DNA of 36,178 nucleotides from an uncultured Thermosynechococcus sp. (lineage in GTDB: Bacteria > Cyanobacteriota > Cyanobacteriia > Thermosynechococcales > Thermosynechococcaceae), in contig NZ_CALJEM010000083.1 in NCBI RefSeq assembly GCF_938074695.1, forward strand, positions 1 to 36,178, given 5' to 3'. The position numbers and the translations under genes are program-made. The notes beneath the pieces are model-generated. The model was given only the letters and a program-made list of their open reading frames with translations. It searched no databases and had not been told where the DNA came from. The stretch's first letter is position 1. Each line of letters opens with the position of its first letter. Positions 22,444 through 27,101 of the stretch are shown piece by piece.

Positions 22444-23910
22444 TTAGCCTCCGATGCCTAACCGTCCTGCCAGCCCCGGTGCCATGGGGATTAGGGTGGC
22501 CGCCATTAAGAATAACAGCAACAGACCAAGACCGGCGCGGGTATCCTCCGGTTCTGTGATCTCATCGAGACTGGGCTGATCCACCTCCCGCTGCAACAGG
22601 AGAATCACCAGCGCCCAATACAGGGCCAAGGGGTTGACGATCGCCACTAGGCCCAAGATCACAAGGGTAATAATCGTCAGTCGCCTCGCAGTTTTGGTGC
22701 CGTAAATGGCTTGAATAATACGTCCGCCATCCAGTTGCCCCGCCGGCATTAAGTTCAGGGCGGTCATGATCAGGCCTAACCAACCCAGAATGACCAAGGG
22801 ATGCACCGTCACCACTTCGCTTTGCAACTGCTGACCCAAAAAGAGCTTGGCGATCGTCCCCACCAAAATTGAGCCTTGAAAAAAGAGAGTCGGCACCTCC
22901 CAGCCCTGACTTGTGGGCGAGAGGACAAGGCCAAGGCTCAACAGCAGCAGGGAAACTCCACCGGCGGCGATCGCCCCCGCTGCGCCAATGTCAAAGAGCT
23001 GGCTGCGATTGGCAAGGAAAGATTCAATACGGGTCATGGCACCAAATGTCCCCAACTGCCACGCCGGCAAAAAGATGGGCGGACCCAAGCGAGCTTGATA
23101 GCGTTTGGCCATAAACCAGTGGCCCAGTTCCCGCACGGCCGCAATGCCCAAAAGGCCGAGGGCAAAGGGCAGCGATCGCTGGAAAAGGCCGGGGGTGGGA
23201 TTCCCCAGTAGGCTAAACCCCTGCAGAATAGCACTGGTCTCCAAACAGGTGCCGAGGGTAGCCACCGCCAAGAAAACCGCTGCCAGCTTCTGGAGAGTGC
23301 CGGAGCGAGCGGGTTCGGTGGTTATCGGCAAGATCACCACCATTGGCTTGCCCTCCCTATTGGGCACCATAAAGAGGCGATAGCGGTGGGGCAAGGCCGC
23401 TTGGAGGCGCTCTGTGAGCTGTTGATGGACAGTCTTAGCCTCACCGCGCAAATTCCCCGGACAGATCACCCCCCCCTTATAGGGGATGTAGTCGGTGGCA
23501 AAATAGGTATCCACACTAAAGATACTCTGAATGGCTTGCAGATCCTCAGCGGGAAGGGTTGGCTTTTCGGCAGCTTCGGCTGGGGTCGGCTGTGCGGCGG
23601 TAGCCTGCTCGAGTTCAGCACGGCCAGAGGAAGCAGGGGGCAGGGGCAGCTCGGCGGTGGCCGCCAGCGATCGCAACCAGCGTCCAAGGGCAATATAGGC
23701 CACAATGGAGAACACAAGGCCAAAGAGCACCGCCGCAAAGTTAATCCCAATCCCAAAGCTGAGACTGCCAAAGACCACCAGCCAAGGGAGCATCAAAACA
23801 AGGGTTTGCAGCCAAGCCACAATCCCCAGCTTGCCGTAGGGCAGGTTGCGGTACAGCCCCCACCCCAGTAGGGCGATCGCTCCCGCCAATAGACCTGCTG
23901 TAATAATCAT
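22444..23910 (-). CDS. Site-2 protease (M50/EGY) homologue with a degenerate HExxH motif
   Basis: A 488-residue polytopic membrane protein of the EGY-type site-2 protease family. It has N-terminal spans (about 1-20, 32-75), a soluble domain (about 85-205; IQSIFSVDTYFATDYIPYKGGVICPGNLRGEA-like region is typical for EGY relatives), and a membrane core (about 210-485). In place of HELGH it has R260-ELGH264: the first zinc-ligand His is Arg (CGG). The second motif, NLMPAGQLDGG with Asp394, is intact. The FGAMTRI segment also fits. As written it should not bind catalytic zinc normally, so it may be a pseudoprotease like plant EGY3. The start ATG at 23910 has GGGAGGTAA upstream; htpG lies 25 bases upstream and larB immediately downstream. 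Confidence 0.88.
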   Translation of the reverse strand: MIITAGLLAGAIALLGWGLYRNLPYGKLGIVAWLQTLVLMLPWLVVFGSLSFGIGINFAAVLFGLVFSIVAYIALGRWLRSLAATAELPLPPASSGRAELEQATAAQPTPAEAAEKPTLPAEDLQAIQSIFSVDTYFATDYIPYKGGVICPGNLRGEAKTVHQQLTERLQAALPHRYRLFMVPNREGKPMVVILPITTEPARSGTLQKLAAVFLAVATLGTCLETSAILQGFSLLGNPTPGLFQRSLPFALGLLGIAAVRELGHWFMAKRYQARLGPPIFLPAWQLGTFGAMTRIESFLANRSQLFDIGAAGAIAAGGVSLLLLSLGLVLSPTSQGWEVPTLFFQGSILVGTIAKLFLGQQLQSEVVTVHPLVILGWLGLIMTALNLMPAGQLDGGRIIQAIYGTKTARRLTIITLVILGLVAIVNPLALYWALVILLLQREVDQPSLDEITEPEDTRAGLGLLLLFLMAATLIPMAPGLAGRLGIGG

Positions 23911-23935: not shown

Positions 23936-25864
23936 TTAGCGTGTGGCCAGAGTGGTCAATTGGGTCAGGACTTGACTGGCACGCTCCGTAAATTGCTGCA
24001 TACCATTCGCATCAAAGCCCCGCTGCGACATTAAGGCCAAATCGTAGATATACTGACACAGCTTCTCCACCAGTGCGCCGGTTTCTGAGGTGCCGCTGGT
24101 TTGGAGGATGGTGCCTTGATTGAGCTTGAGCAAATTTTCCACCAAGGGATGGGCGGTATTCACCACCAAGGTGTGCTCCTCCGGCAACTGGGCATTGGGT
24201 TGCTGCTGCATCATTGCCATCATTTCCCGCAGCCGCCGACTGGTTTCCGGCAACAGGATCATTGCCGGCGGTGCATCCGCCTTCAGCGCTTCCGTGCGGA
24301 TGGTTAATTTGGGCTTTTTCAGCACCGATTCAAAGAGTGCTTTAATTTGCTCACTGCGGGTTTTGTTCGTTGTCGGGTCAACGAGTTCCCTTTCTTTGGT
24401 TTTATCAATGAGGGTTTCATCCAATTCGGCATCCACCCGCAGGAACTTGACATCGCTATAGTTCTGCTCTAGCCACGGGATAAAGTGGGTATCAATGAAG
24501 CTGTCCATAAAGAGCACTTCAATCCCTTGGCTTTTGAGCAGTTGCACGTAGGTGGCCTGATTCACTTCGTCGGTGCAGTAATAGACGCGGTTGCCTTGGC
24601 GCGCCTTGTTGCGCTCGCGGTACTCCTTGAGCGTGGTATAGGTTTTGCCATCTACACAAATTCCGCCCTCTTTAGCCCATAAATCGTCGCTCTCTTTGGG
24701 GGTTAGCTCCGCAGTCGTGCGATAGATGAGAATATCCTCCACTTGTTTTTTGAATTTCTCATCGTTCATTGAGCCAAACTTGACAAAGGTGCCTAGGTCT
24801 TGCCAAGAGCGCACGTAGGCAGTAGGGTCTTCACGGTACAGTTCTTTGAGGCGATCGCCCACCTTCTTGGCAATGTAGTCGGCAATTTTGCGCACGGTGC
24901 GATCGTTTTGTAGGAAACTGCGAGAAACATTGAGGGGAATATCGGTACTGTCAATCACGCCCCGCAGCGGCAGCAAAAAGCGCGGGATGACCTCTTCACA
25001 GTTATCGCTGACAAAGACTTGATTGCAGTAGAGCTTAATTTGCCCCTTGGTGACATCAATATCGGGACGCAGCTTTGGAAAATAAAGAATCCCGTTCACC
25101 ACAAAGGGATAGTCGGTATTGAGGTGAACCCAGAGCAGGGGGTCTTCTTGGAAGGGATAGAGGTAGCGATAAAACTCCAGATATTCCTCTTTAGTGAGAC
25201 TGTTGGGGGCACTCTTCCAAGGGGCAATTTGTTTGTTAATCTGCTCCCCTTCAAGCTTGATGGGCACAGGCAAAAAGTCACAATACTTGCGCACCAGTTC
25301 GCGGATGCGGGCCGGCTCTAGGTACTCTAATTCACTCTCTTGGAGTGTTAGGGTCACGGTAGTGCCAACGCTGGTGCGCTCACCGTCAGAGAGAGTAAAT
25401 TCCGTGGAGCCATCGCAGGTCCAGTGCACGGGAACGGCACCTTCGCGGTAGGAGAGGGTATCAATTTCCACCCGTTCTGCCACCATAAAGGCGGAGTAAA
25501 ATCCCAAGCCAAAATGTCCAATAATGGCGTTTTCCCCTTCGCCTTTGTATTTTTGAACGAATTCCTCGGCGCTGGAGAAGGCCACTTGGGTAATGTACTT
25601 TTTCACCTCTTCGGCGGTCATGCCAATGCCATTGTCGGCGATCGCCAGCTTCTTGTTTTCTTTGTCAATCGTGATCGTCACTTCGGGGTGATCTACATCG
25701 CCGCTGTATTCCCCAGAGCGTGCCACCATGCGCAGTTTTTGAATGGCATCCACCGCATTGGAGACCAGTTCCCGCAGGAAAATCTCATGATCGGAGTAGA
25801 GCCACTTTTTAATGATTGGAAAGATATTCTCAGTGTGGATTGAAATGGTTCCCTGTTCCAACAT
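23936..25864 (-). CDS. htpG: Hsp90 chaperone HtpG
   Basis: A 642-residue Hsp90. The GHKL ATPase domain is at 1-220 (LRELVSNAVDAI, IADNGIGMT and GHFGLGFYSAFMVA are the N, G1 and G2 boxes), the middle domain about 230-500 has the catalytic-loop arginine in NVSRSFLQND, and a C-terminal dimerisation domain follows. Cyanobacterial HtpG is needed for heat and light stress and interacts with phycobilisome linkers and a haem enzyme, so hemW upstream (37-base gap) is a notable neighbour. The frame continues upstream to 25975 over the hemW end, but MLEQGTISIHTENIFPIIKK is the universal N-terminus, so the start is 25864. No CIRCE inverted repeat is seen before it. Confidence 0.97.
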   Translation of the reverse strand: MLEQGTISIHTENIFPIIKKWLYSDHEIFLRELVSNAVDAIQKLRMVARSGEYSGDVDHPEVTITIDKENKKLAIADNGIGMTAEEVKKYITQVAFSSAEEFVQKYKGEGENAIIGHFGLGFYSAFMVAERVEIDTLSYREGAVPVHWTCDGSTEFTLSDGERTSVGTTVTLTLQESELEYLEPARIRELVRKYCDFLPVPIKLEGEQINKQIAPWKSAPNSLTKEEYLEFYRYLYPFQEDPLLWVHLNTDYPFVVNGILYFPKLRPDIDVTKGQIKLYCNQVFVSDNCEEVIPRFLLPLRGVIDSTDIPLNVSRSFLQNDRTVRKIADYIAKKVGDRLKELYREDPTAYVRSWQDLGTFVKFGSMNDEKFKKQVEDILIYRTTAELTPKESDDLWAKEGGICVDGKTYTTLKEYRERNKARQGNRVYYCTDEVNQATYVQLLKSQGIEVLFMDSFIDTHFIPWLEQNYSDVKFLRVDAELDETLIDKTKERELVDPTTNKTRSEQIKALFESVLKKPKLTIRTEALKADAPPAMILLPETSRRLREMMAMMQQQPNAQLPEEHTLVVNTAHPLVENLLKLNQGTILQTSGTSETGALVEKLCQYIYDLALMSQRGFDANGMQQFTERASQVLTQLTTLATR

Positions 25865-25901
25865 GATGTTTCCCGTGAGTGCATTCTTGGTCAGACAACT
25901 T

Positions 25902-27101
25902 CTAGTGTATCGGTAGGGGTTCCCCTTTCTGTTGGCGGAAAACCGATCCCTCCAATGCTTCCCAAAGGGTAACAATGACGTGATTGGCTACAAGAAAGCC
26001 TGCCGGCTGCGTCAAGTGCAGGCGATCGCCCGTTACACAAAGCGTCTTGGGAGACACTTTTGCTGCTGCCATGGGCAGAGCTTCAACCCACGAGAGAGGA
26101 AATTCATCCGCCAAAGCCCTCAAACAGAGGCCGTCTCTGAGGCGCAGACCCAGCATAATCGTTTCCAACCAGCGATCCCACAGGGAATCCGGACTCACTT
26201 GCTGAAGGCTCCCTGGTAAGGTTTGCAGCCATTGATAGTATTCACGGCGGGTACGCGGACGGCTGAGGCGGCGATGCTCCAGATAACTGGTGGCTCCCAT
26301 GCCAAAGCCATAGTAGGGTTGATTGCGCCAATAGACTTGATTGTGACGACAGGCAAACCCCGGTCGGGCATAGTTGGAAATTTCATAGTGGTCATAGCCC
26401 GCTGCGGTTAAGATTTCGTGGCCAAGACGATAGGCGGCGGCGGCCTGCTCTTGGGTAGGCAAGGGGGCAACTTCCGGTTGATAGCGTTTGCTGAAGACGG
26501 TTTTTGGCTCAATGATCAAGTCATAGATTGAGAGATGGGTTGGCTTGAGGGCGATCGCTCGTTCTAGGGAGAATTGCCAACGCCCTAGGGATTGTTGCGG
26601 CAGACCTGAAATAAGATCGATGCTCCAGTTTTCTACCCCCGCCATATACATCATCTCAACGGCATGCTCAACATCAGCGACAGTGTGACTCCGACCACAG
26701 AGCCGCAATAGCTCATCATCAAAGGCTTGGACGCCCAAGCTAATGCGATTTACCCCTGCGCTGAGGTAGCCCTGCAATTGTTCTAGGCCAAACGTCCCCG
26801 GATCCATTTCCATGGAAATTTCCGCCCCTGGCGCAATCCCTATCTGGCGATCCAGAGCTTCCAGCAGTTGGGCAATATACTGAGGTGGGACTAAAGACGG
26901 CGTTCCACCCCCAAAAAAGATAGTTTGCAGCGGTTGTGGATCAGGAGGAGTCTGGGCAATTTCTTGGCACAGCGCAGCCACATACTCTTGAATCAACGAT
27001 GCTGCCAACGTCGGAGAATTCCCCATCACTGTAATTGGAAAGTCACAGTAGAAGCAGCGGCGCCGACAGAAGGGCAGATGGATGTATGCGGCTGTCGTCA
27101 T
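25902..27101 (-). CDS. hemW: HemW, radical-SAM haem chaperone (HemN-like)
   Basis: A 399-residue radical-SAM protein. The [4Fe-4S] cysteines are C12, C16 and C19 (CRRRCFYCDF): the residue after CxxxCxxC-x is Phe, not the Cys found in true coproporphyrinogen dehydrogenase HemN. IFFGGGTPSL, GVQAFDDELL and the HNQVYWRN motif are HemW signatures. HemW transfers haem to target enzymes; database entries often misname it coproporphyrinogen III oxidase. It appears to head a minus-strand run hemW-htpG-S2P-larB. The start ATG at 27101 lacks a strong Shine-Dalgarno; the 64-base gap to the UPF0182 gene shows no clear promoter. Confidence 0.93.
   Translation of the reverse strand: MTTAAYIHLPFCRRRCFYCDFPITVMGNSPTLAASLIQEYVAALCQEIAQTPPDPQPLQTIFFGGGTPSLVPPQYIAQLLEALDRQIGIAPGAEISMEMDPGTFGLEQLQGYLSAGVNRISLGVQAFDDELLRLCGRSHTVADVEHAVEMMYMAGVENWSIDLISGLPQQSLGRWQFSLERAIALKPTHLSIYDLIIEPKTVFSKRYQPEVAPLPTQEQAAAAYRLGHEILTAAGYDHYEISNYARPGFACRHNQVYWRNQPYYGFGMGATSYLEHRRLSRPRTRREYYQWLQTLPGSLQQVSPDSLWDRWLETIMLGLRLRDGLCLRALADEFPLSWVEALPMAAAKVSPKTLCVTGDRLHLTQPAGFLVANHVIVTLWEALEGSVFRQQKGEPLPIH

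Follow-up and report, generated by a model that had tools for sequence, protein, structure and literature searches.

Membrane proteins of the EGY type are relatives of the site-2 proteases (S2P), and their architecture of GNLR, HExxH and NPDG regions has been described for EGY1 and EGY2 of Arabidopsis and for Slr0643 and Sll0862 of Synechocystis (PMC6131628, PMC4284730). The function of the GNLR signature is called unclarified (PMC6131628), and Slr0643 is cited as required for acid acclimation (PMC4284730). The plant protein EGY3 is a conserved S2P-like pseudoprotease of the chloroplast, and under stress it keeps other proteins stable (PMC9355673, PMC10978774), and it has been called the only S2P pseudoenzyme, found in plants only (PMC9355673). 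Among other protease families, the plastid FtsHi proteins are metalloprotease relatives with a mutated HExxH which are still essential and work in complexes (PMC8197885). The iRhoms are inactive relatives of intramembrane proteases which act on membrane clients without cutting them (PMC3149277), and bacterial pseudo-orthocaspases are cyanobacterial protease homologues whose catalytic residues have been replaced (PMC6426788). No description of S2P pseudoproteases from bacteria was found in the open-access papers searched, a mention in subscription papers being possible.

Here we analyzed an EGY-type gene of an uncultured Thermosynechococcus sp. in a window of 36,178 nucleotides, the whole stretch of DNA considered. 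The encoded protein shares the EGY architecture with EGY1 and EGY2, which differ from it in being reported as active. Its likeness to EGY3 is that of a conserved EGY-type S2P relative in photosynthetic cells from which the zinc motif is missing; the difference is that EGY3, compared here by its description, is presented as plant-only, whereas the cyanobacterial losses are separate events in many clades and leave most of the motif in place. The fold of FtsHi is unrelated and includes an intact ATPase domain, which the Thermosynechococcus protein does not have, the pseudo-orthocaspases have a soluble caspase-type fold, and the iRhoms are animal proteins with a serine-protease fold, so that they offer an analogy of mechanism only. 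The kind of protein is thus known, and its repeated origin in bacteria with an Arg/Lys signature appears to be new. The features of the gene are given in Table 1; the reading frame, strand, length and both active-site motifs which the initial annotation had reported were all found again in the sequence and its translation.

Table 1. Features of the EGY-type gene, as positions in the window.
Feature	Position	Strand	Basis
EGY-type site-2 protease homologue of group A, predicted zinc-less pseudoprotease	22444..23910	-	ORF and translation; 488 aa plus stop; Pfam M50
RELGH in place of HELGH, codons 260-264; codon 260 is CGG	23119..23133	-	Sequence; Arg in 11/11 congeners
Ala for the conserved Pro of the AGP motif, codon 313	22972..22974	-	Pro in 161/163 intact group A proteins, lost in 50/60 broken ones
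NLMPAGQLDGG, codons 386-396, third zinc-ligand Asp394 kept	22720..22752	-	Sequence; Asp kept in 6/8 broken group A clades
GNLRGE, the EGY signature motif, codons 152-157, kept	23440..23457	-	GN[LM]R in 60/60 broken group A proteins; signature per PMC6131628

Membership of the site-2 protease family M50 is given by homology, through a Peptidase_M50 domain (PF02163, residues 249-407, E 2.1e-14, 53.8 bits against a curated cut-off of 27.2) and a membrane core with two motifs, and the GNLR signature places the protein in the EGY subfamily; the NCBIfam models searched with the 488-aa protein gave no match. The orthogroup profile was also compared with the archaeal S2P structure 3b4r, and in this weak match (E 0.012) both metal motifs were aligned, with position 260 on the first His of the archaeal HELGH, position 394 on the Asp of MDGG, and the AGP proline likewise on its archaeal counterpart. 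An active S2P carries HExxH with both His ligands together with the Asp of the LDG/NPDG motif; in the Thermosynechococcus protein the Asp is present and one His ligand is absent throughout the genus, while Glu261 and His264 are still there. The proline of AGP is also gone throughout the genus (Ala or Ser at 313), which gives a double active-site signature and had been missed by the initial annotation. No substitute His, Cys, Asp or Glu ligand was evident near the metal site in Thermosynechococcus, the only fixed gains being at positions 150 and 338. An AlphaFold model built from three sequences reached a mean pLDDT of 39.8 and a pTM of 0.22, too low for the model to be used.

The alignment with close relatives which the initial annotation had proposed was run, and each of the 11 Thermosynechococcus genomes searched, several of which are assembled as a single contig, was found to carry Arg260, within the motif variants RELGH, REVGH or REGGH. 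Codon 260 is CGG in every one of them and CAT, for His, in the sister genera; the motif is HELGH in Synechococcus PCC 6312 and HDLGH in a second sister genus. Arg260 therefore originated on the Thermosynechococcus stem, and the HELGH of PCC 6312 makes the loss a recent one. Fixation across the genus rules out a sequencing error, against which the initial annotation had also argued; its argument from two base changes is right in its arithmetic (CAT or CAC to CGG) and superfluous given this fixation. Within the genus the dN/dS (NG86) of the gene is 0.084, against 0.078 in the case of the intact paralogue, which indicates purifying selection and a maintained gene. The zinc motif has accordingly been lost from a gene kept under purifying selection, as in EGY3, and the parallel with the plant protein that had been drawn from the sequence was borne out. 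In one Thermosynechococcus genome (L010, G005) the motif has drifted further to REGGH, with Gly within the motif helix.

The initial annotation did not see that the motif has been lost many times over, in separate events, in two families of the EGY type. Orthologues of the protein, here called group A, were collected from 223 genomes of the class, and the motif is broken in 60 of these, a count which gives no estimate of frequency because the sampling was enriched for affected families. Broken motifs are RE[LVG]GH in Thermosynechococcus (11/11), RELAM and variants in Pseudanabaenaceae (32/32 sampled), RELAH with Ser at 394 in Synechococcus elongatus, and YEGGR, YELGR, NEIGR, TEIAH (with Asn at 394) and GEIAR/REIAR in five further genera; in the affected genera all sampled members are broken. 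On a joint tree of group A and its paralogue group B, built without the active-site columns, nine separate breaks were placed in group A, eight of which remove a zinc-ligand His, so that at least eight losses are independent. In S. elongatus, of a genus that serves as a model organism, the group A copies (L063, L138) are doubly broken by RELAH and by Ser for the Asp of LDG; a frame of 3271 codons around one copy was rejected as an artefact of a masked stretch of N. In two unrelated genera (L017 in G012 and L080 in G069) the motif reads HDLGH, with the catalytic Glu changed to Asp and both His kept, and these two proteins may still be active.

Most of the conserved core, and usually the Asp, is kept in the broken copies. 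Of 103 positions conserved in at least 93% of the intact group A proteins, 69 survive in every one of the eight broken clades, and only His260, His264, Pro313 and Gly316 were lost in four or more of them; the last two belong to an AGPxxG segment. In group B the proline at 313 follows the same pattern as in group A, being present in 81/83 intact and 13/28 broken proteins. A basic residue is commonly gained: Arg or Lys stands within the motif in 81 of the 85 proteins of both groups that lost a ligand His, and 84 of the 85 have either this or a changed Asp, sequences within one clade not being independent. Counted by event, the charge pattern holds in 8/8 group A events, and no Arg or Lys was found in the flanking helix columns sampled in intact group A proteins. 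Since one transition is enough to turn His into Arg, mutation may account for some of the Arg excess.

Taken as a whole, we consider it probable that the gene encodes a zinc-free membrane pseudoprotease of the EGY type which keeps a non-catalytic job. Arg260 would occupy the place of the zinc ligand, putatively paired with Asp394 and Glu261, two buried acids, and this pairing could stabilise the membrane core without metal, the basic residue standing in for the positive charge of zinc beside the buried Asp and Glu. The soluble GNLR domain and the transmembrane groove would then hold membrane clients or partners without cutting them. To judge from the sequences, the catalytic zinc and proteolysis are both very probably absent; binding of clients is a guess by analogy with EGY3, the iRhoms and FtsHi, to which we give somewhat less than an even chance. 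This explanation is favoured by the fixed Arg260 beside the HELGH of PCC 6312, by the normal constraint on the gene, by the independent losses (at least eight in group A and about ten in group B), by the positions never lost together with the GN[LM]R kept in every broken group A protein, and by the two further marks of broken proteins, a basic residue in the motif and the missing Pro313. Against it stand the retention of His264, Glu261 and Asp394 in Thermosynechococcus and the ease of the change from His to Arg. The initial annotation had also read a pseudoprotease with its fold preserved, and the genus-wide Arg, the normal constraint and the want of an evident substitute ligand support that prediction.

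That cyanobacteria have lost the zinc site repeatedly, in independent events, indicates that S2P relatives without zinc exist in bacteria, and it suggests that the EGY scaffold serves a function which can be separated from proteolysis. In Synechococcus elongatus, a host with simple genetics, the role of EGY3 and the GNLR domain, which is unexplained, thereby become testable. Of the cyanobacterial EGY-type proteins sampled, about one in four is probably not a protease, although homology alone would call it an S2P. More tentatively, the ancestral EGY proteins may have had a non-proteolytic task in the GNLR domain and membrane core for which cutting was optional; cyanobacteria would hence have dropped zinc repeatedly in two paralogous groups, almost every time with Arg or Lys in the metal motif or with a changed Asp, and EGY3 would be one more instance and no peculiarity of plants.

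The second EGY-type S2P of the host (C11, 485 aa), which defines group B, has an intact HELGH and leads to the explanation that we rank second, namely that one active site serves a complex in which the active paralogue is joined by the group A protein as a non-catalytic half. Pairs of active and inactive proteins exist in plastids, as ClpP/ClpR and FtsH12/FtsHi (PMC8197885), and outside Pseudanabaenaceae none of the genomes with both genes has both of them broken. In Pseudanabaenaceae, on the other hand, groups A and B are both broken, and the trade-off between the groups is not significant at the genus level (Fisher p = 1.0 overall and 0.18 without Pseudanabaenaceae), so that such a complex is rather unlikely. 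A reciprocal loss between A and B, striking at first, was rejected on the same two grounds. The motif is broken in 28 of 111 group B proteins (from 111 genomes), in about ten independent clades of ligand loss, some tree placements in this group having low support and long branches. The RseP-type copies, a small control, were intact in 13/13 examined.

Several observations concern the members of these groups. In the Pseudanabaena genomes examined (L324, L325, L381; also L375-L378 and the group A copies L072, L111 and L132) three S2P types appear broken, namely group A (RELAM/RELAI), a diverged group B (RGIAQ, NTITK etc.) and a type with a CBS domain (NKIAH/SKIAH, with PFEGG), and the RseP-type copy is intact. 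The EGY signature of intact group B proteins is mostly GQLR or GQMR, and many broken ones (families f5 and f24) read GNLR like group A. Primer matching with an in-frame CPLLYW suggests that Slr0643 belongs to group B and not to the group of the Thermosynechococcus protein; the sll0862 primer pattern matched no Synechocystis genome among 390, and Sll0862 was left unplaced by this matching.

It is very unlikely that the protein is still a metalloprotease, with its metal held by His264, Asp394, water or a replacement ligand, or with another metal. The three catalytic residues that remain in Thermosynechococcus would allow this, but no new ligand was gained near the site, a basic residue at the ligand place should repel a metal ion, the proline of AGP has gone as well, and other broken clades have lost His264 or Asp394 too.

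The neighbouring genes had led the initial annotation to propose a role in folding or stress, and a factor acting with HtpG and LarB is, by a little, the more improbable reading still. The identities of HtpG, LarB, HemW and TatD were checked, and the order of htpG, the S2P gene and larB is tight in Thermosynechococcus: the gene lies just behind htpG, as had been stated, with a gap of 25 bp. The claimed coupling to larB holds here, where larB begins at the base after the stop codon, and the spacing differs between genomes. Apart from Thermosynechococcus, a single sister genus (G012) has this order, which is missing from nearly all orthologue loci outside the family of the host, and in PCC 6312 htpG adjoins a group A protein with an intact HELGH; the adjacency is thus older than the loss of the motif, which makes the argument weak. 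With none of these neighbour genes at 126 of 139 orthologue loci, the htpG/larB context was rejected as functional evidence, and gene context says little on function. A decaying pseudogene or a sequencing error, which would account for the loss of one catalytic residue, can be dismissed, since the congeners share Arg260 with an identical codon in a frame open in 11/11 and under the low dN/dS given above.

One minor point concerns the start of htpG. The listed htpG frame begins at a TTG inside hemW (window 25859-25975, minus strand), and the family match sets in near residue 40; the true start is probably an ATG about 37 codons downstream.
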